Shown here: one piece after another, positions 20,302 to 42,600 of the stretch
Position numbering within the stretch: position 1 is the stretch's first letter
Layout of the letters: each line of letters starts with the position of its first letter
Source: Purpureocillium takamizusanense
Taxonomy: Eukaryota; Ascomycota; Sordariomycetes; Hypocreales; Ophiocordycipitaceae
Direction of reading: 5' to 3'
NCBI RefSeq assembly: GCF_022605165.1
Contig: NC_063069.1
Span: 2,728,001 to 2,792,000 of the forward strand
DNA length: 64,000 nt
Program-made: the position numbers and the translations under genes
Notes under the pieces: generated by a model
Seen by the model: the letters and a program-made list of their open reading frames with translations, nothing else
Told to the model about the DNA's origin: nothing
Database searches by the model: none

Positions 20302-23300
20302 CTAGCCGTCAAGCATCTGCTGCAGAGCGTTGACCCTGTAGCTCTCGCTCCTCTCGACGAGCTCCTCGTGGCGGCCCTTCTCCACCACCTTGCCGCCTTC
20401 GACCACGAATATCACGTCAGCCTTGCGCACCGTGTGCAACCGATGTGTGATGGCAATGACGGTGATGCCGCGAGCCGCCCGCTCGAGGCCTTCCTGGAGA
20501 GCCTTCTCGCTCTCGGCATCCAGCGCGCTGGTGCTCTCGTCGAGGAGCAACAGGCGAGGCTTTCGAACCAAAGCTCGTGCAATCGCAAGCCTTTGACGCT
20601 GCCCGCCTGACAACCGTGATCCATTAGGTCCACACTCTGTGTCGTATCCCATGGGCATCGCCATAATGGTCTCGTGCATGTTGGCCAGCTTGCATGCCTC
20701 CTCAATCTCGGCATCCGTTGCCTCGTGATGGGGCCTGGATCCGAGCCCGACGTTGAACTTGATGGTGCCGTCAAACAGGGCGCAATCCTGAGGCACGACG
20801 GCAATGTCATTGCGGAAGTCTGTGCCATCATGGGCGCAGATGTCGACCCCATTGATCTCAACCGTGCCTCGAGTAGGGTAGTACATGCGCTGCACGAGCG
20901 ACATGATAGTGGACTTGCCCGCACCCGACGGCCCAACGAGGCCACAGAATTGCCCTGCCGGGATGGTGAACGACATGCCCTGCAGGATAGGCACGTCAGG
21001 TCTGGCAGGGTACGCAAAACCCACGTCTTTGAAGACGACCGTTGCGCCTCGGTTTCCCGAGCTGGATATTGGTGCTGCCTCTGCCACGGCCTCAACGTCG
21101 TCTCTCTTCTCGCTCTCACCACCCTCCTCGATCTTGGAATGCGACACATCCTGCGACGACGTCAGGTCCAAGAGGCTAAGAATTCGAGAACCAGCTTCTC
21201 GGGCCCGTGACACTTCCGGCGCCAGAGTAAACATGTTACCCCACAACTGCGCGCTCACAAGCATGGAGATAAGAATGACAAAGAACTGTGTAGGTGTGGC
21301 CTCTCCTTTGGTTATTCTTGTGGACCCCCACCAGTACGCGAATGCATAGATCATTGCGCCGCAGCTGTTTGAAATGGCGAGGAAAAGGTTGGCATGCGCA
21401 CTCGCGAGCGTCATCTCCTTCTGTGGCGCCCTCAGAGCCCGGCGGTAGCTCTCCAGAATCTCCTGCTCCAGTGACAGTGAAGAGACAGTCTTGAAGGAGT
21501 TGACAGCTTCGACTGTGATCCCGATGGCGGTTGAAAATGCGCCCGCGTGCTTTCGTTCGAATCTCGACAGCGCACGTAGTTGCAGGATGCCGGAACCCAG
21601 GAGAATAGGCACCGTGACCAGGCAGACCACCGCTATTTTCCAGTTGAGAATATGGCACACTGTGATGGCGATGACGAAGTTGACAACGATGGAGAACATG
21701 GTACCCATGATGGAGCCGCTAAAGCCTCCGATGGCCGCGGTATCGGCGGTGATGACGGATAGCAGCGTAGCTGGCGTCCGTCCGCCGGACTGGTGCCAGT
21801 CCAGCCCCTGTTCATACATTGAACGGAAGCAGAGCACGCGAAGGCGGTACAGCAGCTTCTCCGCCACGTAGCCAAAGGCTGACCAGCTGACGGAGTTTGC
21901 AATCAGCTCCACGCAGGCGAGCATGAAGTACAAGCCTCCAAAGAAGCGTCCTGCCCATCGAATGTGATCGGCCGTGTTGCAAGGGCTCAGACTGCCGACT
22001 GTGTTGCCAAAGATGAGACCTGATCCAGTGAAACTCGCACCAACAATGACACTGGCAAATATTGCAAAAACGATCCACAAGAGGTTGGGCCGGGCCATCT
22101 TGGCTAACTGTTTAATGATTTGACCAGTGGATTTGTGCGAGTCCAGCTCCTTGATGGCAGGTTCATTTGGCGTGCTCGGAGCATCTGGGTCTGCCGCAGC
22201 TTCGTTGGACTTTGTTTTTTCCGCCCTGAAAGCCTTCTCCTCCAGCAATGAATCCTTCTCGATGGCGTCCGAGTCCCCACGCGCGGTGCTCGCCATCGAG
22301 GGGGTATCGTCATTCTGCTTGGACTCAATGTTTTGCAAACGAACCATGCCAGCGTACGCGCCATTGAGGGCCATGAGCTGTATATGAGTCCCTTGCTCGA
22401 CAATCTCACCGTTGTTCATGACAATGATATTGTCTGCATTTTTGATAGTCGAAAGCCGATGTGCAATGGCGATGAGTGTTCTATCCTTTGCGATGGACTC
22501 AATGGCCATCTGGATGCGATGTTCGCTGGCCGAGTCTAGAGAAGCGGTCGCCTCATCGAGAATGAGAATCTTGGGATCTCGAATCAGGGCACGCGCGAGT
22601 GCAAGTCGCTGCCTCTGGCCTCCACTGACGAGTTTGCCACCAGTTCCGACCTGGGTTCCATAGCCGTTGTCGAGTCTATCGACGAAGCCGGACGCATCGG
22701 CCAGGGCGGCGGCCTCCCGAACCAACTTAACCAGGTCTACCATATCCTGGCCCTTAGACTGGGCAGCCTCATCCAAGGACTTACCGGCTCTGACGCTCGT
22801 GGCAACATCTGCCAAGTCCGTGCCAAGAATAACGGATTGGAAGCGCTGGTGTGCCGGCCATGGAGAATTGAGCAAACCCAGAGCGATGTTTTCCAGGATG
22901 GAGCGATCCAACAGCGACGGTTCCTGTTGCACTAAGCTCATGAAGCTCCGGAGATTCTTCACATTCAGTGTGCGCAGGTCATGGCCGTCCAGATAAACCG
23001 TGCCCTCGGTTGGGTCGTAGATTCTACAAGTGAGACCGGCAACTGTCGATTTTCCACTTCCTGACAGTCCAACTAGGGCGGTGTGCTTTCCGGCAGGGCA
23101 AGTGAAGGACACCTTCTTAAGTACCGATTGGTCGGGTCGAGACACATAGGCGAAGGTGACGTCTTGGAAATTGACCGTTCCAGAGATCGAGGTTGGGAGT
23201 CTCTCTCCTGTGTCGGCCTGAGAGTCAATGGCAGACGGGGCGTCGATGTCGGCGCGGAGCTTCTTGAAGGATGCGGCGGCATTACCGAGAAGCGGCAGAA

Positions 23301-24534
23301 GAGGAGCAATGGACCCAAGAATCACACAGGCTACCGGAAACAGTCAGGTTGGCAGCCCACAAGCACACGCGGACAGAAAACCTACCATCGACAATAAGAA
23401 AGACAACAGTATACACCCGACCGACTGAGACGTAGTTGTCTCCCTTCTCAACGATGTCGGCAATTTGCCTGCTGCCTTGCCAAAATGCAAGTGCATTGGC
23501 TGAGTAGGCAATGAAGTAGATGGATCCGGCCTGGACGGCGGCCGTAATGGCCTTCCTTACGCCGTGCCCTTGGGCCTGCAACATTCGGGAGGCGAACTTT
23601 CCTTCGAGGCGGGGACCAGCGCCAAAAGCCTGGACGACAGCGATATGCGACAGTGTTTCCTGGGCAACGGAGGACGCAGATGCAATAGCATCCGACATGC
23701 GAGTCGCGAATTTCGTCGTGAAGGTACTGCCAATGCCGGCCATGATGAAGAAGGCTGGAATCAGGCAAATGAGGATGGCGGCGAGGGTTGTGTCCCGGAT
23801 GAATGCAACGACGTATGCGGATATGAAGAAGGAGGAGCAGCCGATGCAAATGCCGACCTTTTCGGATGTGCCAGATTGCACGGCTTGTATGTCGGCGTTG
23901 AGCCTCGAGGTCAGCTCTCCAGCCTGACGCTTGTCGTAGAAGGTGGCATCCTGTCGAAGAAGGGCTCGAAAGTATCGATCTCGGATGCGCGCTTCGAGGC
24001 GACGGCTAAAGAGACCCCAGGAGACGGCGTAGATGAAGATGGATCCTAGGCTGCTGATGGCGATGTAGACGATGAGCAGAACCTTTTTGTTGGTGTCGGA
24101 CTGGATATCGCCAGTGGGCTGAGAGTTGTTGACCTCACAGGATGCCTTGTTGAGATTGTCGAGCAGGTCACCAAAGATGATGCCCATAATGGGGAAAGGA
24201 ACGCCGGAGCCGGCGGCGGCAATGGTGCCGACAACAAGGAGGAGGATGTCGAACCATGTCGGATTGGCGTAGAAGAGCAGGCGGAAGTAGGTAAAGAAGT
24301 CGCCCCGGGGCTGCTTTGTGTTCAACGCGACGTGTAAGTCGATGATGGCACGCGTCGCGAATACTGGGGACCTGGTAGACAACTTACAGACTTGTCGTCT
24401 TTGGCCGGTGCACTCGACTTGTCGTTGCCGTCGCCAACAACATTGACAGCGGTCGCCGATGTAGGCTCTGAATGGGCAAGCTGCTGCTCAACAGTGGCAG
24501 CAGCAGCGGCCTCATTCCTGGCGGCAGCACCCAT
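20302..24534 (-). CDS. Full-length ABCB (MDR-type) transporter, SitT-like, edge of siderophore cluster
   Basis: Three exons: 24534-24388, about 24313-23386, and 23330-20302, giving about 1367 aa. The first acceptor could lie 3 bp further in. Layout is TMD1 (about residues 70-370), NBD1, linker, TMD2 (about 765-1050), NBD2. NBD1 shows Walker A GLSGSGKST (about 445), signature LVSGGQRQR and Walker B ILILDEATASLD. NBD2 shows GPSGAGKST (about 1157), LSGGQRQR and LLLLDESTSALD. Both ATP sites look intact, so it should be an active exporter. The Aspergillus fumigatus siderophore locus, as I recall it, also carries an ABC transporter (SitT) next to sidD. The promoter shared with the FAD oxidoreductase has two exact SreA-type sites. 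A role in exporting siderophore or breakdown products is inferred; a general multidrug pump is the alternative. Confidence 0.93.
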
Positions 24535-25597
24535 GGTTGCTCACCACCTCAGGCAGGAGCTGTCGTTAGGTCAGCTGGGTCGGCAGGTCACCAAGCCAGA
24601 GACGCATGATCCCAAGAAGTGAAGAGAGGCAGGAGCGGGCAAAGAAATGGCCTGTGAGTGGACTGTGTGTGACGCATGGGGAGACCGACGGGACCGGGGG
24701 GGGGGGGGGCAGCTTTCGGCCGATGAGCTAGATGGGATGCAGGAGCGGTGGGCAGGCGGGCGGGGTGCCTGCCATTTGGTGCTTTGTGCAGAGGAAAGGA
24801 AGGAGCAGTTTGCGTTTGTGGACAAGACTGGAGGGATCTGCAAGGGAAGGAAACAACTCACGGCACAGCGGCAGAGCCGGTTGAGAGTGGCAATGAAAGG
24901 CCCAAGATAACGATACCGCACAGTTTAGTAGTATCTACACCGAATCACTACTAGGTACCTTTGCTGTTGAGGGCTGAGAAGGTCATGGTCACACGGCTCA
25001 ACTCGACGAAAGCGTCTTGCCCGCCGTCACAGTTGCGACGTGGACGATGGGCATCATAGCTCCAGCAGGAAGAGCGGCAGCACATGCCGAAGATTCCACC
25101 GCCTGCGCCCGCGCGCGCGAACTCTGCCGCCCAAGATGCGATACAGCATCATGCCCTACCCCCTGCCCTGACCCGTGCCCGTGCAACGAACGGCGTGCCG
25201 GCGGGCCAGCGTCGGACAAACGGGAACGACATACAAAAACAGTACCATGCATGGGGGGGCGGCGACGGGCACAGGCCCGTTCTCCCCGTGAAGAAGAATA
25301 CAGAGTGGGGCATCAGGAGAAAGAAAGCGAGAGAGAAAAAAATCAGATTAGATGAGATGTGCAGATGCCCAGGGAGGCTTATCGAGGGCAAGGTACCGGC
25401 GAGTCTCGCCTTGTACCGGCCGCGTCCCGCCACGCAGCAAGCCGCACCCCCCTCCCCTGTCTGCAGGTGGCGGGCTAGCTTCTGGTGTTGTTTGTCGGTC
25501 GCAGGTACCAGTACTTTCCCCGACGACGGCGTGTCTGGCTGGCTCGAGGGGCGGCGCCGTCCCGGAGACCGGGGCTTGGCGGAGGTGGGGCACTCGG

Positions 25598-25606
25598 ATC
25601 AGATAA
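25598..25606 (+). promoter_or_regulatory. SreA-type iron GATA-factor site (ATCAGATAA)
   Basis: An exact match to the ATCWGATAA consensus reported for SreA/SRE-family iron repressors. It lies about 1.06 kb upstream of the ABC transporter ATG and 1.7 kb upstream of the oxidoreductase ATG. Confidence 0.65.
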
Positions 25607-26352
25607 TTTCTCTCGGCGGTTTCAAGCTGCGCTGCGCTGCGCTGCTAGTGGTAGTCATCCGGCGCGTCCCTTGTCCCTCCGAGGAGTGCTCGCGGCGCCG
25701 CTCCTCCCCGAGCGGCGACCGACACGAGCGAGCGCAAGTTTCTCGCCAGCGGGTACGGTTGTGATGAGGGCCTGATTAGGAACCACGCAGATGGGGACTC
25801 TGCAAATATGGACCGGGTTCCTCAGGTATTGATCTCATTGTGCCGCTTTCCGACCCCCTTCCTCCCCGCCCGCCCAGGGAGCGCAGCGCGAACCATCGCC
25901 GACCGCAGCCGACCGCGGGTCCAGCGCCGCGTTACCACCCTGGCTCGGCCTGGCCTGGCCCGCACTGCTCGACGGATGGGGACCCTCTCGCCAACACAAA
26001 AAAAAAAAAAAAAAGTCCGCTGCGAAAATGGCTCACAGCTCGCTTCGGCCCGCGCAGTGTGCACAACGCTTGGCCGGCAGACACTCATCTTCATGCAGTA
26101 CGAACATACGTACGTACAATACGTAGTGGCACTTCGTAGTAACGGGCTCCCTCGTCACCGCCATCTGGGCCTTGCGCGCCCGATTCCGCCTGCACTCCGC
26201 CGCGCACGCGCAAAGTCATTGTGCCGCATGTCTCGCCCCATCATAGCTCCTCGGGTACTACTAACCCGTACGTGGTACGGTACGAACGTATGTACAAGTA
26301 CGGACAGCCACACCCGCAAGGGTTGCATGTGGTCTCATGTGCCAGCTGGCGG

Positions 26353-26361
26353 ATCTGATAA
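26353..26361 (+). promoter_or_regulatory. SreA-type iron GATA-factor site (ATCTGATAA)
   Basis: A second exact ATCWGATAA site in the same divergent promoter, about 0.95 kb upstream of the oxidoreductase ATG at 27300, or about 0.5 kb from the alternative upstream ATG at 26874. Confidence 0.65.
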
Positions 26362-27299
26362 GCTCCGGATCCACCACCACCACCGCCACCAACCAACCCC
26401 CTCATGCCCTCCCATCCTCGAAAAGTGGACAAAGATGTTTGCAACGCCTTATTGCGGCATAAGCGAGGGTCTGAAGTAAGCTCACAACCGTTGGCGGGGC
26501 CCCCCTCTTCCCCCGCCGTTCTGCTTCTCTGTCCCTTTATCATTACCGTATCGTACAAAGTACGTAGGCACAGTCTGCAGTAGGACTCCGCTGCCGGACT
26601 CGATACCTATTCTATTCCCTGTCCGTCGTCGCGCCCCCCGGCAAAAGGACTTGCTCCCGAATCCCAAACCCCTTGCCTAGGTCCTCATCCGACGGTTCCC
26701 GCCGTTGATGAGCTGTAGAAATACTTGTACTGGGTATCGTAGGGGTCCTTTGTCTGCGTGTATGTGTCTGTATATTGGGGCTCGCTCGGTCTCTGAGATT
26801 GTGCCCAGACGGAAGACGCGTGTGTCTCTCCGGGCATCAGCGTCTCATCGACGTGTCCAGAAAGGTCGCATGTATGTCGTCGTCCTTGCTACCCGCCGCT
26901 GCCATCCTCGGCCGGGCGTGCCCACGGCGCACAGCTCCGCGTGTCCTGGTACCGCCGCCACTGTCCATCAGCGCTACCCGACCCAGCAGTGGTGGTGCTA
27001 CTAGTAGTAGCAGTAATATCCCTACCCCCTCGGTGGTGCTCGCCTCCTACTGCGCCCGACCCTCGCTTCTCCCCCAGCGGCAGCGGGTTTTCCCTTTTCT
27101 GCAACGTTCCCCAAAGTCCTGTCGCGGCCGACGAGCATTGCATACTATTCCCATCACCCAGCCTCGCCTCTCTATAGCTGTTGCTGCTGCTGCTGCCGCC
27201 GCCGCTCACACCCCGTCGACTGTTTGGGATCCGCCTTCACGGGTCCGTAGACGGAACTTCGTCGCAGCTGCTGCCACCCCTTTTCGTCAGGGTTTCAAG

Positions 27300-28807
27300 A
27301 TGGGTTCCGTTCCGGACGCAAACGCGCCCACCGTCAAGGTGTTCATCGCCGGCGGGTCCTACTGTGGCTTGTCTGCGGCCGCCAACTTGCTCGACCTCGG
27401 CCAGGGCCTCTCCCCGCGCATGGCCCAAGAGGCCTATGTCCACCACGCCGACCTGCCGCGCGTCAACTGGGACATAACCATTGCCGATGAGAGGGACGGC
27501 TTCTGTAAGACATCGTCACTACCTGGACAATTGCGTCTGTTGTAACCCTGACTCCGCGCTCTGACCTTGACTTCTACACAAGTCCACCTGATCGGGTCGC
27601 CTCTGGCTCTCGCAGACTCAGACTACGCAAACAAGGCCTGGGTCAAGTTCCAGGACCTGGTCGGCCTGCAGGATCCCCAGATTAAGTTTGTCAACGGGGC
27701 CGTGACCAGCGTCGACTGCGAGGCCAAGAAGGCTACCACAGTTGACAACGTCACCAAGGAGGCCACCACGCACGAGTACGACTACTTCGTGGCTGCGACC
27801 GGCCTGAGGCGGGTGTGGCCCGTCGTCCCCCAGTCCCTCACCCGCAAGCAATACCTCCTCGAGGTCGAAGAGCACATACACGCCGTCACCAACGCCCAGC
27901 ATGGCGTGGTGGTCGTCGGCGGCGGTGCCGTGGGCATCGAAATGGCCGCGGAGCTCAAGCTGGTGCAGCCTGACTTGAAGGTCACCCTCGTGCATTCGCG
28001 GGACAAGCTCCTGTCCTCGGAGGGCCTGTCGGACGAATGCAAGGACAAGGCCCTCGAGCTCGTCCGCGAGGCCAACGTGGACGTGCTGATGGGTCACCGC
28101 CTCAAGAGCACTAACAAGGTCGAGACCCTTGACGGGTCGACCAAGTACGAGGTGGAGTTTACAAACGGGCACAAGATGTATGCCAGCCAGGTCATCATGG
28201 CCGTCTCCAAGAGCGTCACGACTTCGTCGTACCTGCCGCCCTCGGCTGTCGACGAAGAGGGCTACGTGAAGATTGAAACCAGGTGAGCTTCCTTTTAATT
28301 TTTATTTATTTTTTTAACACCTCTCTTCCATTTTTGCTCACACACCTTCCCCTCTGCAGTCTGCGCTTTGAGCCGGGCACGCCCAACCACGAGTACCACT
28401 TCTGTTCCGGCGACCTGGCCAGGTTCACGGGCATCAAGCGCTGCGGCGCAGCCATGCACGGCGGGCACTACGTCGCCCAGAACATCCACAAGAGCATCCT
28501 GAAGGAGAGGTGCGGCCAGGAGCCCGCCTTCATGGAGTTCCGTCTGGAGATTCCGCCCATGATCGGCCTCGCGGTCGGCAAGAAGGCGGTCGCGTCCGGG
28601 CCGGAGGGGACCGTCTTTGGCGAAGACGTGATGCAGTCGTACTTTAGAGACGACCTGGGTTTCACGAGTAAGTCACCGGCACCGTCCCAAGTGATCATTT
28701 GTAGCCCATTCGTCTGTCGGGTGTTGCTAACGGTAACGCGCGCACGAAAAGTCTGCTGGGACTGGATTGGCCTGGGGGGCCGCAAGCAGGAGAACCTGAC
28801 GGCTTGA
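27300..28807 (+). CDS. AIF/AMID-like FAD-dependent oxidoreductase in siderophore cluster
   Basis: Four exons from the ATG at 27300: 27300-27504, 27583-28282, 28360-28667, 28752-28807 (422 aa), all with GT/AG borders. The N-terminal Rossmann segment is VKVFIAGGSYCGLSAAANLL, with GGSYCG in place of the usual GxGxxG. YDYFVAATG follows. A classical second NAD(P)H-binding motif is VVVVGGGAVGIEMAAEL (about residue 205), and FCSGDLARF is the second FAD contact. This is the AIF/AMID/FSP1-like branch of the pyridine nucleotide-disulphide oxidoreductases. The gene lies between the ABC and MFS siderophore transporters, and its promoter has exact iron-GATA sites. A job in siderophore iron release or redox protection is my inference. 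The frame continues upstream to an ATG at 26874 (see findings). Confidence 0.88.
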
Positions 28808-29345
28808 TGATGATTCTAAGAGAGCGCGAGCCTAGAGGTATGAGGCATATTGGAAACGGTAGAAAATTTGGCGTTATTGGATCATGGGAGTTGATTTTTA
28901 CAGCTATGACACCGCAATAGCGTGTCAAGAACATCGGGAGCAATTATCCACATCATCCTCAGCGTTGGAACTGTGAATGTCTTGTGAACCCCCCTTATCA
29001 TAGCACCATTGAGTGCAAGCTTGTCAAGAGGTTGTCGCGTTTGCTCTGCGGGGGTTGTTACGCGGGGCCGCTGTATGCCCTGCCGTGCGACCCGGACCTG
29101 TGACAAGGTGAGTTTCGAGGGATCATGGTGCGCGTGCATTTAGTCTGGCGTAAGGTGGTCTTGACAGTTGTTTGGACACGGTTACTCACGGTGATCAGTA
29201 GTGTTCAGAAAGGGGATGAAAAGGCTTTGTTCATGACGCGTGTGCAATTGAAGCATCAATGCGCTCTACGTGATTATGCTTCTAAATCCAAGATTCGCCA
29301 TGCTTGCTTCTCATCAAAGTCATGATTAAATATGCTTCCCATCAT
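28808..29345. other. Intergenic between convergent genes
   Basis: About 540 bp between the 3' ends of the FAD oxidoreductase and the MFS siderophore transporter. No gene, repeat or site was seen beyond likely 3' UTRs. Confidence 0.6.
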
Positions 29346-31205
29346 TCAAATCACGTTGCCTCTCACTTGCTTCATGCTCTTGACATTGATGTCACGCCAC
29401 ATGGCCACCGCTACGAGCGCGATGATCAGGACCGACGTCCCCCCTAGGAGCATCATTCTCTGGCCGTCGCCGTACGCCCTTTGGATGGCGATCCGTGCCG
29501 GCGACCCAACAGGATACGACAGCTGGACGTCGAGCCGTCCGTAAATCTTGTCCAGGTTCCCGAGCTCCGACGCGGGGAGGTACTCGCGCAGCTTCCTCGG
29601 GAACACGGCCTGCCAGATGGCCGCGGCGACAGTCAGGCCAATGGCGGCGCCGAGGGCGGCGAACATGGACTCAACGGCGAGCACGACGGCGACGAACTGG
29701 TGCGAGGCGGCGGCGGCCATGACGGCCGTCTGCTCGCAGATGACGATGGTGCCGCCGGCCACGGCGATGAGGGCCTGGCACATGACCAGCCACCCGACGT
29801 GGACGTTTGGCTGGCGGAACCTGATCATCAGGCCGACTCCCACGATGAGGAGCGGGACGCCGACGTACAGGGCGAGCCACTTGAAGCGCCCCGTCTTGCG
29901 GATCAGCAGCCCGACGACGAGAGCCCAGAGGCACGTGCCGACGCTGTAGACTTGCCCTACGTAGCTCGCCTGCGTGACGGAGAGGCCGTTGACGACTTGC
30001 AGGAACGAGTTGAAGTAGGAATCCCAGATGTAGTAGCTGGTAAAGCTGACACAGGCGAGGATGCAGGCGCCGAAAACGGTCCGGTCCATGAGGAGGCTGT
30101 ACGGGATGAACTTTACGGGTGCGCATCGCCATTCCCATAGGGCAAATAGGACGAGAAGCACAATGCCAGTGACGAGGAACGAAACGATCATGGGCGAGCG
30201 CCAGCCCAGCTCCTGGCGCGAGTAGATGTTGAACGGCAGGAGAAACAGAGCCAGACCAATCGAGAGCAGCAGCACACCGACAAGATCGAACTCTTGCGCG
30301 TAGTGGACAAACGTCTGCGTTGGTCCCTGGCCGTGTTTCCTTTCGGGGATGAGGCCCCGCCGTTTGGCCTTGTGGTAGTTGTGCATGAACAGAAAGTACA
30401 GCGGCAGGGCGACGACGGGCGTGACCACCGCAAAGGTGGCAAAGCCCCAGCGGAAGCCGGGGCCGTTGAGAAAGGCCTCGGAGATGGGCCCGGACAGCCA
30501 CGCGGTGACCATGTATGGCGAGCTCGAAAAGGCAAAGACGAGGCCGCGGTTCCTCAGGGACGAGGTGTCGGCGACGAAGATGCTGAGGCAGTAGTCGAGG
30601 CCGTTGAAGCCGACCCAGTAGAAGACCTGCGCGGCGGCGTACGTCTCCACGTTTCGGCACGCGGCCATGGCGGCGAGGCCGAGGGTGGTGAGGACGACGG
30701 CGAGCAGGTACCCCTGGGGCCGGCCGAAGACGTCGAGGATCTTGGCGAGGGTGAGCTTGAAGACGCCGCCGACGATCTGGCTCATGAGGGCGACGGTCGG
30801 GGTGAGCGAGTGCTGCTGGAAGGCCGAGGTGACCCAGGGCGTGAGGGCGCTGGTGGCGCCCTGCTGGGTCGTGTTGACGAAGTAGATGACCCAGATCATG
30901 GCGTAGGCGGCCACCAGCGCGGTCTGGGTCCATGCCGTCGTCGTGGCCTCGATGCTCTGCACGCCGGCCTGGAGGGGCGGCAGCTGGCCGTCGTCGAGAA
31001 GGCGGTCTTGTTGCTCATCATGGTGTTGTTGTTGTTGTCGTTGATGGCTGCTGTCACCATCGTAGGTGTCAGCGCCGCCGGACACTTGTTGGCGCTGGGT
31101 ACATGAAACGCGAGCCGCACTCTTATCAGACTCTGATGGGACGGTGGTGCCATAAGCCCGGCCGTCCGCCTTGGGCAAGATCGGGGCGGCTTCGTGGTGT
31201 CTCAT
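29346..31205 (-). CDS. Siderophore-iron MFS transporter (SIT/Mir family)
   Basis: A single exon. The frame is open from 31358, but the first true ATG is at 31205 (MRHHEAAPIL), giving 619 aa. About 14 hydrophobic segments follow a soluble N-terminus of roughly 85 residues containing Gln/His runs. Recognisable family stretches are ALVAAYAMIWVIYFVNTTQQ (TM1), the loop DVFGRPQGYLLA, FYWVGFNGLDYCLSIFVAD, SLRNRGLVFAFSSSPYM, and the late loop PRKLREYLPASE before the last membrane segments. It should be a proton symporter at the plasma membrane that takes up ferri-siderophores. Mir/Sit subtype and substrate cannot be read from sequence by eye, but the neighbouring SidF, SidI and SidD genes favour fusarinine or TAFC. 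It shares a divergent promoter with sidF that carries two exact iron-GATA sites. Confidence 0.87.
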   Translation of the reverse strand: MRHHEAAPILPKADGRAYGTTVPSESDKSAARVSCTQRQQVSGGADTYDGDSSHQRQQQQHHDEQQDRLLDDGQLPPLQAGVQSIEATTTAWTQTALVAAYAMIWVIYFVNTTQQGATSALTPWVTSAFQQHSLTPTVALMSQIVGGVFKLTLAKILDVFGRPQGYLLAVVLTTLGLAAMAACRNVETYAAAQVFYWVGFNGLDYCLSIFVADTSSLRNRGLVFAFSSSPYMVTAWLSGPISEAFLNGPGFRWGFATFAVVTPVVALPLYFLFMHNYHKAKRRGLIPERKHGQGPTQTFVHYAQEFDLVGVLLLSIGLALFLLPFNIYSRQELGWRSPMIVSFLVTGIVLLVLFALWEWRCAPVKFIPYSLLMDRTVFGACILACVSFTSYYIWDSYFNSFLQVVNGLSVTQASYVGQVYSVGTCLWALVVGLLIRKTGRFKWLALYVGVPLLIVGVGLMIRFRQPNVHVGWLVMCQALIAVAGGTIVICEQTAVMAAAASHQFVAVVLAVESMFAALGAAIGLTVAAAIWQAVFPRKLREYLPASELGNLDKIYGRLDVQLSYPVGSPARIAIQRAYGDGQRMMLLGGTSVLIIALVAVAMWRDINVKSMKQVRGNVI

Positions 31206-31641
31206 GGTGACAGCGCGCGTCTGAGACCTGCCGTCGTCGTCGCCGCGGCGGCTGGGGGTTGACGGCGGCGCGTCCGTGTTGAAGATGTTGCAACCCTGGT
31301 TGGCCCTGCTGCGGCCACGAAGGATGCGCAGCAGCACACCCACTTGGTAGTCCCCCACGAGGATGAGTGCTACTCAGAGTACTACTGCATCACGCGTGCG
31401 TGCATGTCCTGTCCGCACTGGTGGGCCGGCCGGGGGGTGTCACTGTCGACATCGAGGGCTCGTCAGCCACCTCACCGCGCCGTTGTCGGAGCATAGGTGA
31501 CCTTGGAGAGGGCAGACCGGAACGGCACCAGCAGGTCTTCTTCTGCTAGTACTAGCAGGGGGCTAGAGCCGGGTGGACGGGATTCGCTGCGGCTGCTGGT
31601 CGGTGCACTACACTGACGAGGCGTTTACGTTGGTCCGGTCC

Positions 31642-31650
31642 TTATCAGAT
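31642..31650 (-). promoter_or_regulatory. SreA-type iron GATA-factor site (ATCTGATAA)
   Basis: An exact consensus match on the minus strand. It lies 437 bp upstream of the MFS transporter ATG at 31205 and about 1.5 kb upstream of sidF. Confidence 0.7.
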
Positions 31651-31752
31651 CAAAGGGGCGCCGGGATGAATGCAGGAGGCGTCTTGTTGGTCCGTGCGTA
31701 TGTACGCCATTTCGGCAAAAGTTCGCTCCTCCCACCAACAAGGTTATTATGG

Positions 31753-31761
31753 TTATCAGAT
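31753..31761 (-). promoter_or_regulatory. SreA-type iron GATA-factor site (ATCTGATAA)
   Basis: A second exact match, 111 bp from the previous one and in the same orientation. Paired sites at this spacing fit the two-site arrangement seen in many GATA-factor targets. Confidence 0.7.
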
Positions 31762-33196
31762 CCGCCGCCAGTTGCAGTACGTAACTCAGTACTAACAGTG
31801 TACGAAGTACACACGTGCAGTGCAGCAGCGCACCACCCCAACAACTTACCCGACCGTTCCCTTCCGATTACTTCACGTGCCCCAAAGACATACACTCGAG
31901 GCGCCATCCATCAGCGCTTCAACAACCTTCTGCAGCGAACGGGGCCTGCTGCTACAGTTCTCCGCTTTGGGGGCGCACGACAGTTAAGCACAGCACATAT
32001 GCTCTCCAGCATTAATGCGTTCCTCTTTTTTTTCTCCTTCTTTTTCGCCTTCTTTCGCGTAACACATCGGACGGTGAGCTTAATGCGTACGGTAGTATAC
32101 GCACATCCAGTTTACTCCACAGCTGAGCGGCTCTGAAGGGCTGGCGCAACTCGCTCGCTTTCTCACTTCCCTGTCTGTCTGTCTGCTTAGGCGCGCGTTA
32201 TTTTCTTTTCCCCCTCCTTCTCTTCTCTTCTCCCGGCTCCGTCCGTGAGGGAAATACGTACTTGGTTTTCTTCCTCCGGTCCAGGGTCGGCTTGCGCGGC
32301 GGATTTTTTTACAGCTTGTACCTGTACCTCGCTATCCGGCAGGCTTCATCCACGAACCCACCCCACTCTTGGAGAGATCCATCAGACCTTGGTAATTGAT
32401 GCCAAGGGGTGGGTGGGCAGGGCAGAGCAGGGGAGGGGGTGTGTGTGTCGTCGAGGGGGTGCGTCCGGCGAGTGAAAAACTTCCTTCGGCCGATGGATAC
32501 TTCGTATAGTACCAAGTACGTGACAACGGCCGCGCGGTGCGTGGATTCCATCCGAGTTGCATCGCTCATATGCCTGACTCCGTCGGACTTGCAGCGGCAG
32601 CAGCATCCATGCCATCCAGCGGCGTCTTTTTGTCGTCTCATCCGAGGTTCTCGATGCGGCCTTGCTTGCGTGCTTGCGCGCGCCCAGGACTCCCCACCCT
32701 CGATGCGTCGAAGATGGCGGCGATCCTCTCCACCACCCCTCGCTGGCACACACCGCGCAGTTGTAGGTACGAGTAATAGAGCCAGACCAGGCCCTGGAAC
32801 CTCCGGGCGTAGCTTCCTACGCTGGCTGGCTGGATACATAGGTGGTAGTAGTAGGAAGTCCCGAGCCGCCACAGCATGAGGCCACAGCAAAGGCCCCCGG
32901 GCGAGGCTCCATGTCGTGTCGTGTTGGTGGTGCCTGTGCTGGCGCTGGTAGTAATAGTAGAGTAGTAGTAGCAGCAGTACGGTAGCTTCGATGCTGTCAC
33001 AACGGACCCCTCCTCGTCAACATTGCCATCTTCTTCTGTTCGACAACTCCGTTTCTCTTCCCACCAATTGTTTTGTTGGTGTTGTTATCGTTGCTGTTGG
33101 TGGTTTAGGTGTGTCGTGTCGTCCAACGCCTTTTAGCAGTGTCAGCATCAACGTTGCGTTGCGTCCGTACCGAGGGGAACACCTCGATCCTACAAA

Positions 33197-33385
33197 ATGG
33201 CTGCCGCTCCCCTGGTGATCCAGCTGGCGTCTCTGTCCGCCGATGAGACCGTCCTCAAGCTGCCTCACCCGTACCTCACCGAGTACGTCCTCGGCAAGCA
33301 AGCCAGTCGAGGCGAGCTTCCCCTTTACCAGCTTCGCGAAAAGCCCACCACCACTGCGTCCTCCTCCTCGTCCTCCTCTCAGAAA

Positions 33386-33416
<31 letters not shown>

Positions 33417-34833
33417 TCCCCGGCAAGCTCGACAACCCCGCCCTCGCCTTCTCCGAGCCCGCGCACCTCAAGTCGAGCGAGCTCCCTCCCGCGTCCAACA
33501 ACGGCGCCTGGGCCCGCGCCAGGCGATCGCCATGCTCGACCGTCGTCTGGGACGGTGCTGATTCGTCGTCGCCGCCGCCGTCGCTGGCGCAGCTTTGGCT
33601 CCTCATCTACTTCCTCTTCACCGTCCGGCCGGCCGAGGAGCTGCTTCGCCTCGAGCTCAAGGGCCGCGATGCCTCGACCCTGGCCCGGCAGCTGACGGAC
33701 GTCCTTCTCGCCGTCGAGCACCCGCTGCCGCCCCGCGCGGAGAAGAAGAAGAGGGCCTCTTCGTCCACCGAGGCGAACGAGAGTGTCGTCGTCGTGGCTC
33801 TCCGGAGCACCTTTTGGCAAGGCGCCGGCTCGCCCTTTGGCCCGCGCCCCGTCTGGTGCCCCGACGAGTCGCCCAAGTCGCTGTCGGGAGGCCCGAACCC
33901 GCTGGCCTCGTACCCCCTCACGCCGCTGCACCACACCATCACCGTCGCCTCGGCCGGCGATCCGCAAGACCCCGAGCGCTGCCAGCAGTCGTGGCATCCC
34001 GTCCGGCCCGCGAAGCCAGCCCCGGGGGCCGTCGTGTACAGCCGCTGGATCCCTCATCTCAAGGAGACCTTCTCCATGGTCTCGCTCGACTGGGAGGACC
34101 CGGAGCACCTGAGGCTGTTCCACGAATGGCAAAACGACCCTCGCGTCTCCCAGGGGTGGAACGAGTCGGGCACCGTGGAGCACCATCGCCAATACTTGCG
34201 CAACATCCACGAGGATCCTCACCAGCTCGCCATCTTGGCCAAGTGGGACGACACCTACTTTGCTTACTTTGAGGTGTACTGGGCCAAGGTATGTGTGCGG
34301 TTTTCTCTCTCTCTCTCTCTCTCTCTCTCTTTTCTTCCCTCCTTGTCATGTTTCCCGCCTTTCTTTTTGCCTTGAGTGTTCCGTGCCTACCGGGCCGGCC
34401 AGCCAAGCCAAGCAAGCCAAGTCGCAGTGGACTCGAACTCTTTTGAGCTGACCGATGCGACGAACTGCAGGAGGATCGCCTGGGCGGCTACTACGACGCC
34501 GACGACTTTGACCGCGGCCGCCACTCTCTGGTCGGCGACGTGCGCTTCCGCGGGCCTCATCGCGTCTCTGCCTGGTGGAGCAGCCTCATGCACTACCTCT
34601 TCCTCGACGACCCGCGCACCATGCACGTCGTCGGCGAGCCCAAGGACACCAACTCCACCGTCGTCATGTACGACCTCATCCACGGCTTCGGCCTCGACAA
34701 GTTCGTCGACCTGCCCCACAAGCGGAGCGCCTTTGTTCGCTGCCCCCGCGGCAGGTTTTTCCAGCTGTGCCCCCTGGCCGAGAACGAGAAGGCGGTCGGA
34801 GGCATGCGCATCGGCTTGGTGCCCAAACTGTAA
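33197..34833 (+). CDS. sidF: N5-hydroxyornithine transacylase SidF (AlcB/IucB-type GNAT)
   Basis: Two exons, 33197-34288 and 34471-34833, with GTATGT/CAG borders, giving 484 aa. The ATG has an A-rich context (ACAAAATGG). Residues 1-280 are the less conserved N-terminal half, with a Ser/Gln tract near residues 55-75. The C-terminal AlcB acetyltransferase domain begins around [20 protein letters not shown]. It continues through [54 protein letters not shown] and [21 protein letters not shown]. In fusarinine synthesis SidF transfers anhydromevalonyl from CoA to N5-hydroxyornithine. The paralogue SidL (acetyl transfer for ferricrocin) is the alternative; the neighbouring SidI and SidD genes favour SidF. 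The C-terminus -PKL is a weak PTS1-like tripeptide. The 182-bp intron is unusually long for this locus. Confidence 0.9.
34305..34330. repeat. (CT)13 microsatellite in the sidF intron
   Basis: Thirteen CT units lie just after the 5' splice site of the sidF intron and make it unusually long. Three GCCAAG motifs (34402-34421) follow in the same intron. Confidence 0.9.
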
Positions 34834-35251
34834 GGGCCCGGGGAGGGACTGGAGGCAAGCAGCTGGGACAGGATGGGAGTTTTGTCTGTACAAGTCTCTG
34901 TGTGTGTGTGTTCATGTGTTTGTCGTTTTACACGGGGCCCGCGTTCAACAAGCATCCCGTCACAAGCAAATGAATGGGCTTGCTTCTACGCTACATACAT
35001 GTTGTCGACGTACTCAAGTTTACAAAACGGTGATGCCTAGATTGGATCAAATTGGAAGCTCTATTGCCATTGAAGTCTCTTTATGCCCAGTCTCGTCTAA
35101 ACTTTTCTGCACGTAGCTCCATACCAAGTAAAATATGAACAAGGAATCCCCCCCCCCCCCCCGCCTCAGTGTCCAAACCACCGTTTACGTACGTACAAGC
35201 AGCCGCGAGACCGATACTAAATCCCATCATGGCGAGCTCCGCTCCAGTCAC
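34834..35251. other. Convergent intergenic region sidF / sidI
   Basis: About 420 bp between two convergent stop codons. It includes a TG-rich run near 34900 and a C15 homopolymer at 35148-35162. There is no iron-GATA site here, as expected for a region with only terminators. Confidence 0.65.
35148..35162. repeat. C15 homopolymer
   Basis: Fifteen consecutive C residues close to the 3' end of sidI. The length may be inexact because sequencers slip on such runs. Confidence 0.85.
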
Positions 35252-37112
35252 TCACAGCTTGGCAGTCTTTCCCCGCTGGCGCAGCATCTCGTCGCCAAGC
35301 TTGGCCATCTCAAATTTGCGCACCTTGCCGCTGCCCGTGAGCGGCACGTCGGCCGGCACGCCCTCCTCGCCGAGCCAGAAGACGTGCGTGGGCGACTTGT
35401 GCTTGCCGAGCTGTGTGCGCACCCAGTCGCGCAGCTCGGCATCGCTCGGCCGCGCCCCGTTGTCGCTCCGCTCCACGAAGGCGCCCACCACCTCGCCGTA
35501 GTGCTTGTCCTTGAGACCGACGACGATGGCGCGCGACACTGACGGGTGAGCCATGAGGCGCTCCTCGATTTCCAGAGGATAGATGTTCTCGCCACCTAAT
35601 GCGCTATCAGACACATGCATTGAGCGCTCGTCGGGGTGCTTACCTCGGATGATTATGTCCTTGAAGCGGCCCGTGATGGTGCAGTATCCGTTCTCGTCAA
35701 ACACCGCCTCATCCCCAGTGTGAAGCCAGAGCACGCCCGCCGCGTCCCGCACCATGACCTCGTTGGTCTTCTCCGAGTTGTTCCAGTAGCCAGCCTGCAG
35801 CTGGTAGCCAGCCATACAAAGCTCGCCCCTGGTGCCTATGGGCACAATGTTGCCGTCCCGGTCTACAATCTTGGCCTGTGCGTGCGGCATCACAGTGCCG
35901 ACGGTCGTGAGTCTTGTGTCCATGGCGTCGTCGGTGAATGCGTTGAAGCATGTCGGCGACGCCTCCGTCAGGCCGTAACTGCTTGTGAACTCGGACATGC
36001 CAAAACGGTTCACCAGCAGCTCCATGAGATACCGTGGGACCGGGGCGCCCGCGATGATGCCCGTTCGCAGCCTATCGCAGCTGAAGCCGGGCGGGAGCTC
36101 CGCTTGGAAGAGTGAATCAAACATGGCCGGCACGCCGTGAACCGCCGTACAGCCCTCGTCGGAGATTGCCCGCAGCGTTGAGGGGATGTCAAAGACCTCG
36201 GCTGGGTAGACAATCTTGCCGCCATGGGTGACAATGGCCAGTAGGCCAAGGACGAGGCCGAAACAGTGGAACAGCGGCGGCGGGCAGCAGAGGATGTCCT
36301 CGGAGGTGAGGCGCATTCTATCGCCGATGAATCGCGAGTTGTTGACCAGATTGCTGAAGCCCTATCAGTCTTGAAATACCTCTAGTGCTAGATGCGCCCG
36401 GATTTTGTACATACTGATGCGTGAGCATGGCCGCTTTGGGCATGCCTGTCGTTCCGCTTGTGAACTGCAAGTTGACCACCTGGTGAGGTAGAACCCGTCT
36501 CATCGCCCGGTACAGCCGGTCGTGGTTCTTGCGACCGCTCGCCCGAGTAAGGTCGTCGTATGTCGTGTACCCGCTTGACTCGCCGCGTAGTATAAACACT
36601 TGGGGGCCTTTCCCTCCTTTCTTCTTTCCCCGTAGCTCATCCAGCAGCCTTGTGTTGTCGAGCTTGCCGATGGTCTTGGTTGTGAAAAACACCTTGCAGT
36701 CGGAAAACTCGATGCCGTACATGGCCTCGGTGGGCGTGTACGTGTTATTCAGGATGACGAGCACGGCGCCTATCTTGGCCACGGCGAAGAAGACGGCCGC
36801 GTATTGCTCGCAGTTGCCTGCCATGATGCCAACGCGATCGCCGACGCCGATGCCCATGTCGAGGAGGGCCTGGGCGAGCGAGGAACTTTGCTGGTTGAGG
36901 TCACTGTAGGTCCAGCGGGCCCCCGTCCAGGGGATGACGATGCACTCGTGCGTTCCATGCTGGTATGTCTGTAGCTCGAGGAGCTCGCCGAGAGTGAGAT
37001 CGACAAGAGGAGGGTCGAGGGGGCCGTGAACCAGAGAAAGGCGCTCGGTCACAGGGACTGTGTTGTCCTCCTGGTGGCGGATGGACGATATCGCAGTCGG
37101 TTGAGTAGCCAT
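35252..37112 (-). CDS. sidI: Mevalonyl-CoA ligase SidI (acyl-CoA synthetase) with PTS1
   Basis: Three exons: 37112-36415, 36353-35644, 35595-35252, all GT/AG and in frame, giving 583 aa. It is an AMP-dependent synthetase: P-loop VNLQFTSGTTGMPKAAMLTHH, then the CPPPLFHCFGLVLG segment, [49 protein letters not shown], and the catalytic Lys in GSGKVRKFEM near the C-terminus. It ends in -AKL, a canonical type-1 peroxisomal targeting signal. SidI activates mevalonate to mevalonyl-CoA for fusarinine/TAFC synthesis, and the enzymes of this branch are peroxisomal in Aspergillus. A generic medium-chain acyl-CoA ligase would look similar, but the position between sidF and sidD decides. Its promoter, shared with sidD, holds four exact iron-GATA sites. 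Confidence 0.92.
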
Positions 37113-37866
37113 GCTCGGGATGACGCACCGATTCTGGGCAAGGCCTGTCGGGAAGATATCTATTTACCTCTCGACGAGATGGTTCTGCGATCGGATGATC
37201 TGCTGTTGCAATTGTTTAAGCGCGGGTGATGTATCTGCAGAGCAAGTCCAAGCGAAAGAAAGGCTTAGGGTGAACCGACTGCCAATGGCTCCAAACTACG
37301 TAGCAGGTATGGGGGTCAGTGGTCCAGGATCGGCCCTGACGACAAGCAGCATGAGACTAGGCCCCTGATGCACGAGCTCGACTTATTTCCAGTCAGCTCT
37401 GTGCAAGGTACGTTGCCGCGCCGTAGGAGACCGTGGGGCCGCCGTATTGTACCGTTGCAAGTCAGACCAGGTCAACTTTCTGCAGGTCCCGCGAGCCCAC
37501 GTAATGCTCAAGACCAGCAAGGTGTGAGTAGAGTAGCAGTACAGGCTCAGCGATGCCCTTGAGTGTACGAATCTAGGCGAGTTGGGAAGTGTATGGTACC
37601 ATATGATGCAAGAGGCGAGCTTCGAAAGGTGACGATCATGCGTCGAGCAGCGTCCATCCTGCATCGAGTCGTTCAGCCGACCATTTTAGCCCCAGGCGAT
37701 CTCGCCGGCCCAGACAAGACAGAGGGGTATGGGGTGGTATCCATTGCCATTGCCCTGGACTGTACGTCATAGAATACCCGAGCTATGCCGAGGGGTCCTT
37801 TCGGCAACTTCGCGACGGCCGTCGGAGTCCTACTGGGCGAGTCCCATAGCCCCATCTAATCTGATG

Positions 37867-37875
37867 ATCAGATAA
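37867..37875 (+). promoter_or_regulatory. SreA-type iron GATA-factor site (ATCAGATAA)
   Basis: An exact match within a denser group, CTGATGATCAGATAAGATG, that also contains overlapping inverted TGATCA. It lies about 755 bp upstream of the sidI ATG. Confidence 0.72.
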
Positions 37876-38020
37876 GATGAGTATGTCGTTACGTTTCGCC
37901 CACCTCGCAATTGGAATCAACGGGGGTATGAACCTCAACAGTCGCGGTCGCCTCTCCACTCCGGCCTCGGCTGCAGCATCCTGAAAGAGCACAGAGCACC
38001 AGGAAGGGAGAAATTTTTTT

Positions 38021-38029
38021 TTATCAGAT
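38021..38029 (-). promoter_or_regulatory. SreA-type iron GATA-factor site (ATCTGATAA)
   Basis: An exact match on the minus strand, 154 bp from the previous site and about 0.9 kb upstream of sidI. It follows a T-run. Confidence 0.7.
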
Positions 38030-39120
38030 TCAAAGAATATGCGCCGCAAAGTGGGACGGCGCCGACAAGGGGGTCAGACGCAGACGCATCAGGCAGTGGG
38101 CACTCGGTACAAGTACATTGTACGTCACGGCGGCGTGAAGCTGCATACCTAGAGCGGGGTGGCTGTACGACTAGTTCTGCATGGGCGGCGGAGACGACCA
38201 TCTTCGCGTCCAGGTCCGAGCAAGCAGCGGGTCTTCATCTTGAGGGGTCCGTCGAGAGTAGCTGCCACCAAGACGCAGAGGGCGTCTTCTGGTGCGGCAA
38301 TTCTTCGACCCTTGAGGTCAACGGGTGCCCACTCCACAGCAGCAAAGCTGACTGTGAAGAAAAATAGCGGGCGGCGATGGATCTCGGCAGTGACACCGGC
38401 TCGTCATGTTGGCTTTGAACGCGTGTGGAGTGCCTGCGAGGGGATTTGTCGAAGGCTCGGCACGTAAGTTGGCCGAAACCGCCTCGCCCAGGCATGATGA
38501 TGAGCCTTTGCGTGGGTTTGAGCGGACTGGCAGACGGACGTGGGAGGACGAGCGCATGGCAGTGAAGACTGGAGGGGAGAAGACGATAGGTGATGGAGTT
38601 GAGGGGCTCCCATGAGGGGCACAGAGTTACAGTGGAGGAGCTCGAGGGGCAGCCAAGGCAGCGTAGCGCAACGAAGCACGGCAGGAGTGGGAGGGTGGTT
38701 CCTGCGCGCAACTCTGTGTGCTGTACTGTACGACTGTACTGTATTGTATGCATGTGCGTCATTCGCACCTGCCGATTGCTCAGGCCCGGATAATCTACAG
38801 TCGTGACTTGGTGGGTTACTTCGGTGAGTTTAGTAGGTACGTAGTGCAGTGCAGTGCAGTAAGCATCCATTTACTCTGTCTTTCGTACTTGGGTACCTGT
38901 TTCTGAGATACCTTCTCCATCGCATCCATCGCCCCCCTCGAGTCTCCGACAACACCTGGTCCCTGTCCGGTCGGAACAACATACTGTCAAGGTTTTCATT
39001 TACATCCCTTGCACCCGCCCTCGGTCGGGTATTTCGTCCCCCGCCACCGCCCGCAAACGCCCGCCCACCGACCGCGGCCTCGGCCTCGACCTCATCGTCG
39101 ACTGGCCTCGCTCGGAAGAG

Positions 39121-39129
39121 TTATCAGAT
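39121..39129 (-). promoter_or_regulatory. SreA-type iron GATA-factor site (ATCTGATAA)
   Basis: An exact match on the minus strand, 527 bp upstream of the sidD ATG. Confidence 0.72.
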
Positions 39130-39226
39130 CCGCGACCCCGCCCCAGCGTCACACGCAACGGACCCGCCCAACCCTTGCAAGCGCTGGCGCACTCCACATC
39201 GTTCCACGCCATCTTGCGCGCTCGCA

Positions 39227-39235
39227 TTATCTGAT
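39227..39235 (-). promoter_or_regulatory. SreA-type iron GATA-factor site (ATCAGATAA)
   Basis: An exact match on the minus strand, 106 bp from the previous one and about 420 bp upstream of the sidD ATG. The spacing is close to that of the pair upstream of the MFS transporter. Confidence 0.72.
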
Positions 39236-39647: not shown

Positions 39648-42600
39648 ATGCCTTCCGTCGATGAACCAGCCGATGCTGGCATCGATGACCAGCGCAAATC
39701 TACCGTTCATATTCCAGAGTCGGACGCTCAACCTCTGGAACAGCAAAACGGAGCGGCATACCCCGTCGGAGATGACTTGGAAACAATATGGAGATGGAAC
39801 GAGGTCGTACCACCCCGGATGTCGATTTGCATGCACGACCTCTTCTGTCAAACCGCGGAGAAGCAGCCCGATGCCGTGGCGGTTCAGTCCTGGGACGGGA
39901 GTCTCACATACAGCGAGCTCGACAAGTTATCGTCCAAGCTTGCCAGACAACTGCGAAACAAAGGCGTCGAGATTGGAACCCCGGTGCCATTGTGCTTCGA
40001 GAAGTCCATGTGGACGGTCGTCTCGCTTCTTGGCGTCATGAAAGCAGGCGCAACGTTCTCCCTCACCGACCCAAGTCAGCCGGAGGCAAGGCTCCAGACA
40101 ATCGTTGAACAGACAGGCGCTCAGCTGGTCGTGACGTCTGTGCTGCAGAGCGAGCTCGGGCGGAGGATATGCGGAAGGGGTCAGGTTTTGGCGGTTTCAC
40201 AGGAGTATTTCGACCATAGCCCAGACTTCCAAGACGAAGCACTCCCGCAGGTGCCCGCCGCATCGCCCATGTACATCATCTTTACGTCTGGGAGTACGGG
40301 CAAGCCCAAAGGCGTCGTCATCTCCCACGAGAACTACACGAGCGGCGCCATTCCCCGTGCCGAAGCTGTGGGTTACAAGAGTAGCTCCCGAGTCTTCGAC
40401 TTTCCATCGTACGCCTTCGATGTAAGCATCGACTGTATGCTGTGTACATTGGCAACTGGCGGCAGGATCTGCGTCCCCTCGGAATCGGACCGGATGAACG
40501 ACTTGAGCGGCGCCATAAGAAAGAGCCAAGCCAACATGGTACACATGACTCCGTCCGTCGCCAGAGTCCTGGACTCGGACATCATACCCTCCCTAGAGGT
40601 CCTGGGCCTTGGGGGAGAAGCGGTTTCGGCGAGCGATGCTGCCGCTTGGGGCAAAACGACGAGCCTGGTCATTGCCTATGGTCCGTCCGAGTGCACTGTG
40701 GGCTGCACTATCAACAACACCGTTGGTGTTTCAACCGGTATTGGAAAGGGGGTTGGCGGTTCAACCTGGATAACCGATCCGGATAACCACGACATCCTCA
40801 TGCCGGTTGGAGAAGTCGGCGAGCTTCTGATCGAAGGGCCGGTGGTGGGGTTGGGCTACTTGGGCGAGCCAGAGAAGACTGCAGAAGTCTTTATCGACAA
40901 TCCAGCATGGTTAAGTCGTGGTCATGGCTCGCTTTCGGGCCGCGAAGGCCGCCTCTACAAGACGGGCGACTTGGTCCGCTACGAGGCCAACGGGCTGGGA
41001 TCTATCGAGTTCGTTGGAAGAAAAGATCAGCAAGTGAAGCTCCGAGGACAACGTGTCGAACTGACTGAAGTTGAACACCACCTACAAAGCTGCCTCCCTG
41101 CGGGAACCAAGGTGACCGCAGAAGTCATTAAGCCTGAGAACGGTTCGCCTACTTTGGTCGCTTTCCTTTCCGAATCTTCAACACCAGCCACAGCGCCTTC
41201 AGGCGACTTGATAACAGGGCCATCTTCGGAGCTGTCCGCGGCTCTTGCCTCCATTGACACCGCAATGGGTGCTAGAGTACCGAGATATATGGTCCCGGCA
41301 GTGTTCGTCACTCTTAGTACCATGCCGTCGTTGGTCTCAGGCAAGACAGACCGAAAGATGCTGCGTGAGATTGGTGCGGCTTTGCCACGTGAGCGACTTG
41401 CTGGGGCGGGCACCGGAGAGAGCCTAGAAGAGGATCCCCAAACAGACCAAGAAAGACTCCTCCAGCGGGCTTGGTACAAGGTGCTGGGCCAAGACACAAA
41501 GGTTTACCGCAACAGTAACTTTTTCGCCGTGGGCGGTGACTCTCTACGGGCTATGAGACTTGTCGCAGCTGCTCGAGACGAGGGCCTCTCCATCACCGTC
41601 GCGGACATCTTCACAAATCCTTCATTGGATATGATGGCAAGCCGCAGCAAGGACACATCGGCGGCCTCTGAGGACCACATCCCTCCATTCTCGATGTTGG
41701 AGCCAGACTGGGATATTGCCCGGGCCAAAGAAGAAGTAGCAAGCCTTTGTCAAGTCGATCAAAACTCGGTCGAGGACATTTACCCCTGCACGCCGTTGCA
41801 GGAGGCACTAATGGCTCTGTCAGCCAAGGTAAAAGAAGCATACGTGGCCCAGAGGGTTGTGGAACTCGAAGATGCTGCGGTGGCCGATAAGTTAATTGTG
41901 GCATTCGATACTGCGCAGCAGGATTGCCCCATCCTTAGGACGCGAATTGTTCAAGTCCGTGGTCGAGGGCTCGTCCAAGCTGTCATCAAGGGGAAGCTCG
42001 ATTGCTACTATGGAACGAATCTGGCCGAATATCTCGTTGCGGACCGAGATAACGATATGGACCTCGGAAAACCACTTGTTCGATATGCAGTCATCAACGA
42101 CAGCGTTACGGGCAAAGTCAGCTTCGTATTGACGATGCATCACGCGTTATACGACGGATGGGCAATGCCGCTGGTCGTCGAGCGCGTGAACAAGGCGTAC
42201 CGGAACGAGACTCTGCATCGTCCGGCAGAGTTTAAGCATTTCATCAAATATCTCAGCAGTGTCGATAAGGCGGTTTCAGAGTCCTACTGGCGCGAACAGC
42301 TTGCCGGTGCCAATGGCCCGCAGTTCCCAGCTGTGCCGTTTCAGGGGTACCAGACAAAGGCTGATTCCCTTCTCGAGGTTTATGTGCCTTTGGAAAGCCC
42401 TCCAGCGTCCAACGCCACTGTCGCAACTGTCATCCGGGCGGCTTGGGCGTGGGTGGTCTCTCAGTACATCAACAGCGACGATATCATTTTTGGGGAGACG
42501 CTGACCGGTCGCAATGCCCCCATCATCGGGGCGGAGGAGATTGAGGGGCCCATGATCACGACTGTTCCTGTTCGCATTCACGCAGACAAACAGATTCCCG

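Follow-up and report, generated by a model that had tools for sequence, protein, structure and literature searches.

Exact SreA-type iron-GATA sites in the three divergent promoters of a putative SidD-type siderophore cluster of Purpureocillium takamizusanense

This locus raises the question whether the copies of the nine-base word ATCWGATAA between the divergent genes of a putative siderophore cluster are operators for an SreA-type GATA repressor. The stretch analysed (the window) comprises 64,000 bases of the genome of Purpureocillium takamizusanense, C2:2728001-2792000 of a 14-contig, 35.57-Mb assembly. As judged from sequence, six of its genes form a SidD-type siderophore cluster with homologues of an ATP-binding cassette (ABC) transporter, an AMID-like flavin adenine dinucleotide (FAD) oxidoreductase, a MirB-like major facilitator superfamily (MFS) transporter, SidF, SidI and SidD. 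The eight copies found here are considered operators of direct SreA-mediated iron repression of the cluster with a probability of about 0.88.

Both strands of the whole window were scanned for ATCWGATAA. Eight matches and no ninth were obtained, at exactly the positions that the original prediction, made from the letters alone, had named (25598, 26353, 31642, 31753, 37867, 38021, 39121 and 39227); its statement that no copies lie outside this block was likewise borne out. All eight agree with the published consensus at every base. The chance expectation of about one copy per 64 kb given with that prediction was too high: the genome holds 169 copies in 35.57 Mb (69 ATCAGATAA and 100 ATCTGATAA), a rate of 0.30 per 64 kb, and 100 dinucleotide-preserving shuffles of the window gave a mean of 0.30 and a largest value of 2. 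The enrichment is therefore stronger than had been claimed. Across the whole genome, the densest 13.64-kb stretch beyond the siderophore cluster contains five sites at most (C4:2819622-2824845), and when 169 sites were placed at random 20,000 times under a uniform model, eight within 13.64 kb never occurred, the largest number being five. The reversed pattern, used as a control word, occurs 293 times in the genome; since ATCWGATAA is rarer than this, every copy is the more telling. No match to the paired form ATCWGATAA-N9-ATCWGATAA was found genome-wide.

The genes were modelled manually on the sequence, introns included. By these models the sites are confined, as had been proposed, to the three promoters shared by divergent genes (24535-26873, 31206-33196 and 37113-39647; together 6,865 bp), which hold 8/8 sites, and the word is absent from both gaps between convergent genes (538 and 418 bp). 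The ABC/FAD promoter carries ATCAGATAA at 25598..25606 and ATCTGATAA at 26353..26361, both on the forward strand, which lie 1,064 and 1,819 bp from the ABC start and 1,276 and 521 bp from the FAD start codon at 26874 (1,702 and 947 bp from the alternative start at 27300). In the MFS/SidF promoter, ATCTGATAA is present twice on the reverse strand, at 31642..31650 and 31753..31761, at distances of 437 and 548 bp from the MFS start and of 1,555 and 1,444 bp from that of SidF. The SidI/SidD promoter holds four sites. ATCAGATAA at 37867..37875 (forward strand, with a half-site ATCTGAT at 37859) and ATCTGATAA at 38021..38029 (reverse strand) are 755 and 909 bp from the SidI start; ATCTGATAA at 39121..39129 and ATCAGATAA at 39227..39235, both on the reverse strand and the latter with a half-site ATCTGAT at 39280, are 527 and 421 bp from the SidD start. 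Two adjacent genes beyond the cluster, one for an SPX-domain and one for a Gag1-clamp protein, are without sites.

Enrichment in these promoters was compared between the full word and shorter GATA words, with expectations taken from the rest of the window. GATA occurs 30 times (23.7 expected), HGATAR 13 times (7.8 expected) and WGATAA 10 times (1.9 expected), and the eight full sites account for 8 of the 13 HGATAR and 8 of the 10 WGATAA copies. Since the excess of the generic words is no more than modest, the signal resides in the extended word. Among the 840 letter permutations of the motif, which include the motif itself, no other occurs more than twice in the three promoters. With the eight full sites counted in, 11 of the 12 ATCWGAT half-sites of the window fall there.

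A regulator that could use the sites appears to be encoded. The GATA finger family PF00320 has 11 matches in the genome, two of them within one gene at C7:1948063-1948620, where the finger matches at 1948063 and 1948543 share a single open, unspliced frame with C-x5-C-x8-C-x2-C between the two fingers. SreA proteins are described as defined by two GATA fingers and an interjacent cysteine-rich region (PMC2610380), and the gene product is by this layout an SreA-like factor.

The word also recurs at other iron genes. Five of these were located by homology, not by motif, and distances were measured from the matched part. A site lies 606 bp upstream of FTR1 (ftrA), with a FetC-like multicopper oxidase further along, and another 654 bp upstream of HapX. 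Homologues of the MFS transporter of the window gave 24 genome matches, which were merged into 16 places; for 11 of these, the 2 kb upstream include a site. The binomial probability of this number is approximately 2e-19 at a uniform rate, a value to be taken only as a guide, as promoter base composition may differ from that of the genome. Of the best 12 homologues, a cut made post hoc, 11 have a site (10/11 without the window's own gene). Among control MFS_1 genes, 0/9 have a site (nine scored of 443 candidates, one being the second-weakest homologue), and none of nine other GATA-factor genes used as a control has one within 4 kb. ATCWGATAA is thus over-represented upstream of iron-acquisition genes in this genome, namely the cluster, FTR1, HapX and most close MFS homologues, and this shared word would make the cluster part of a genome-wide iron regulon.

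The SreA-type identity of the sites, as originally proposed, is strongly supported by the published motif, the encoded SreA-like factor and the co-occurrence at hapX, ftrA and most of the close transporter homologues. Under sufficient iron, SreA would bind ATCWGATAA in the three shared promoters and turn down siderophore synthesis (SidD, SidF and SidI), uptake (MFS), the ABC transporter and the AMID-like oxidoreductase. The cysteine-rich stretch of SreA is thought to sense iron; when iron is scarce, SreA would be inactive and the cluster expressed. The cluster is very probably switched off under plentiful iron, as in related fungi. SreA binding and repression are inferred from published work; the response of each of the six genes, and with it the direct repression of all six that the original prediction had included, stands as a prediction.

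Several observations weigh against this reading. The four sites at SidA are 3.15-3.60 kb off, too far for certainty, and no site was found within 4 kb of the SidL-like gene, of sreA itself or of the FAD paralogue on contig C1. Among the MFS homologues, the word is missing from the 2 kb upstream of C3:948813, which ranks second with 55% identity, and of the four weakest. Within the cluster, ABC and SidF lack any site less than 1 kb from the start codon, and sites in shared promoters are not assignable to one gene. In Scedosporium, mir of the corresponding cluster is reported as not significantly induced by iron starvation (PMC5932178). In addition, 11 of 19 listed places with multiple sites were inspected, and five of these adjoin genes without an evident iron role: a transcription factor gene of fungal type together with what by eye is an MFS gene (L056), a TLC-domain gene (L057), a Zn2Cys6 gene (L059), a HECT gene (L062) and a gene of no family (L063). 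Grouped sites alone therefore do not prove an iron gene. Five of the 11 look iron-related (L053, L054, L055, L058 with L052, and L060), and L061 was placed in neither group.

The core GATAA would suit other GATA factors as well, and further GATA-finger genes accompany the SreA-like gene among the 11 matches, so that AreA-type nitrogen regulators or light regulators might use the sites and the link to iron be incidental. Such regulators would not account for enrichment in the extended word, as HGATAR falls to 5 copies against 7.8 expected once the eight sites are removed, nor for the presence of the word at ftrA, hapX and 11/16 transporter homologues as opposed to 0/9 control MFS genes. This explanation is judged quite improbable, and AreA-type control was rejected as the leading interpretation on the HGATAR count. 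An accidental clustering of an AT-rich word in promoters is more improbable by far. The reversed control word is commoner in the genome (293 against 169), hence such a composition is not rare per se; against chance stand the shuffles and the letter permutations in the same promoters, neither of which exceeded two copies, and the 0/20,000 placements that reached eight.

SreA might also act directly on only some of the genes (MFS, SidI, SidD and FAD), with ABC and SidF controlled via HapX or indirectly. The distances of their nearest sites from the start codon (1,064 and 1,444 bp, respectively) and the presence of a HapX gene in the genome are in favour of this division. On the other side, the Scedosporium orthologues of sidF and of the sitT-type ABC gene are reported as iron-responsive whereas mir of that cluster is not significantly so (PMC5932178), and transcription can begin far upstream, as at 807 and 346 nucleotides for A. 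fumigatus sreA (PMC2610380). In the three promoters CCAAT occurs 5 times against 7.7 expected, and the CBC-HapX (CCAAT-binding complex with HapX) word CSAATN12RWT once against 0.6. We regard such partial control as possible and rather doubtful. Co-control by HapX was considered and is unsupported, neither CCAAT nor CSAATN12RWT being enriched, but the word is too loose for a firm rejection.

Seven of the eight window sites read GATCWGATAA. A flank test devised after the flanks had been seen was applied to 85 distinct flanks of the 169 genome sites; the label 'iron-linked' was the analyst's own, and closely paired sites are not independent. With these provisos, all comparisons being post hoc, a G precedes the motif in 23/33 iron-linked and 19/52 other flanks (p 0.004), and in 16/25 iron-linked flanks when window sites are left out (p 0.03); an extra GAT half-site is present in 20/33 iron-linked and 9/52 other flanks (p 6e-5). 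Tentatively, the functional SreA element of this fungus might be longer than the 9-mer, namely GATCWGATAA, often with a GAT half-site within about 6 bp. Such a form would fit a compound site held by both zinc fingers or by two molecules. We treat this as a lead and not as a result; it is the one observation here with the potential to extend the published motif. If true, the extended form would tell iron operators from stray copies, and the regulon would be readable from DNA alone.

For assignment of the six genes, Pfam was run per exon and not on spliced proteins. The ABC transporter (20302..24534, reverse strand; 1,367 amino acids; exons 24534-24388, 24313-23386 and 23330-20302) has ABC_tran and ABC_membrane matches in its last exon. 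The AMID-like FAD/NAD(P) oxidoreductase (26874..28807, forward strand; exons 26874-27504, 27583-28282, 28360-28667 and 28752-28807) has Pyr_redox_2 in exon 2, and its best relative, from Purpureocillium lavendulum (91%), is called AMID-like. Its frame is open upstream of the ATG at 27300, and 26874-27299 would add an arginine-rich leader which by eye resembles a mitochondrial presequence; some relatives are likewise longer, with about 490 to 620 amino acids. The MFS siderophore-iron transporter (29346..31205, reverse strand; 619 amino acids; MFS_1) is MirB-like, and some of its relatives are named siderophore iron transporter mirB. SidF and SidI were assigned by domain and position. The SidF-like N5-hydroxyornithine transacylase of the GNAT type (33197..34833, forward strand; 484 amino acids; exons 33197-34288 and 34471-34833) matches Acetyltransf_8, and the SidI-like acyl-CoA ligase (35252..37112, reverse strand; 587 amino acids; exons 37112-36411, 36361-35644 and 35595-35252) has AMP-binding in exons 1 and 2. 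The SidD-like siderophore nonribosomal peptide synthetase (NRPS; 39648..44936, forward strand; 1,762 amino acids) contains one AMP-binding, two Condensation and two PP-binding domains by Pfam, that is one complete adenylation-thiolation-condensation (A-T-C) module and a second T-C module without an A domain. Three of the 120 relatives listed bear the name fusarinine C synthase, and among the matches listed others carry unrelated names, e.g. brevianamide F or surfactin synthetase. Locus tags suggest that the cluster genes sit together in other Hypocreales and relatives too: UV8b_05080 (FAD) and UV8b_05077 (NRPS); Fc.00g031000, 031010 and 031040 (FAD, MFS and NRPS); jhhlp_001567 (FAD) and jhhlp_001563 (NRPS); E4U21_007439 (FAD) and 007438 (MFS). 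A published Clonostachys cluster containing 'ccp10' was sought by literature search and was not recognised among the papers listed.

Some of the other places with several sites were inspected individually. At C4:2817000-2826900 (L053), five exact sites are grouped around genes for two CFEM-domain proteins, an oxidoreductase with Pyr_redox_2 and an MFS transporter of the siderophore type; this is likely a second iron or heme uptake locus. At C3:2236500-2243400 (L054), the four sites are flanked, at approximately 3 kb on either side, by an exon of the aconitase family and by sidA; an unmodelled gene or a long 5' untranslated region may lie in this long gap. At C1:362000-367400 (L055), three exact sites lie between two divergent genes, one for an MFS transporter of the siderophore type and the other for a second ABC transporter. 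At C8:1223500-1228500 (L061), two exact sites are located upstream of an open frame whose sucrase/ferredoxin-like match is weak and stays under the curated cut-off of Pfam; this is possibly an unrecognised iron-regulated gene.

In Aspergillus fumigatus, ATCWGATAA was defined as the SreA motif by Schrettl et al. (2008; PMC2610380), with a 5.4-fold over-representation upstream of 49 putative SreA-regulated genes. The set as given there holds SidD, SidF, the ABC genes Afu3g03430 and Afu3g03670, HapX, FetC/FtrA and Afu1g17180, the last annotated as AMID-like (PMC10455693). The nine-base motif, the clustering of the genes and the target classes (sidD, sidF, siderophore MFS, ABC, an AMID-like-annotated gene, hapX and fetC/ftrA) are shared with the present genome, the FAD likeness being by annotation only; there, however, several clusters and microarray-measured regulation are reported (PMC2610380), whereas here a single six-gene hypocrealean cluster is known from sequence. 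The order Hypocreales, to which the present fungus belongs, also includes Fusarium graminearum. In that fungus FgSreA occupies ATCWGATA promoters by chromatin immunoprecipitation with quantitative PCR (ChIP-qPCR), more so in iron excess, and SIDA, SIDC and SIDD, which FgSreA inhibits, go down when iron is in excess (PMC10602907). The evidence is thus experimental there, and the regulation is only predicted in this genome.

The gene set has close counterparts as well. The sidD cluster of Scedosporium apiospermum comprises a sitT-type ABC gene, sidF, mir, sidI and sidD (CDS2801, 2803, 2804, 2805 and 2806), and its sidD, sidF, sidI and sitT-type ABC orthologues are reported to respond to iron (PMC5932178). 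Judged from locus numbers, the order there is sidF and then mir, and here it is MFS and then SidF; sidL is close by in that fungus (CDS2796), and the other Acetyltransf_8 gene over the cut-off in the present genome is about 500 kb off on the same contig. In Metarhizium robertsii, the coprogen/dimerumic acid cluster likewise combines mrsidD with the sidF- and sidI-like genes MAA_05336 and MAA_05335, and was found through altered transcription in iron deficiency (PMC8656255). The NRPS layout found here matches the description of MrSidD; the product is identified there, whereas the present cluster is known from its genes. GATA and SreA have 0 occurrences in the main text of that paper (PMC8656255).

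Already in print are the motif, its regulator, the classes of genes under its control and a gene set that is nearly identical, with the order of mir and sidF swapped. The genus Purpureocillium was in no title returned by a literature search on the motif string, and the additions made here are the species and the genome-wide site count. The biology is ordinary and shows cleanly, and the accepted model of fungal iron regulation is left unchanged. Predicted SreA control is extended to a SidD-type cluster of a hypocrealean fungus, its ABC transporter and AMID-like oxidoreductase included. Most close homologues of the siderophore transporter in this genome are marked by a single exact 9-mer, and the outcome is a short list of regulon members that can be tested.

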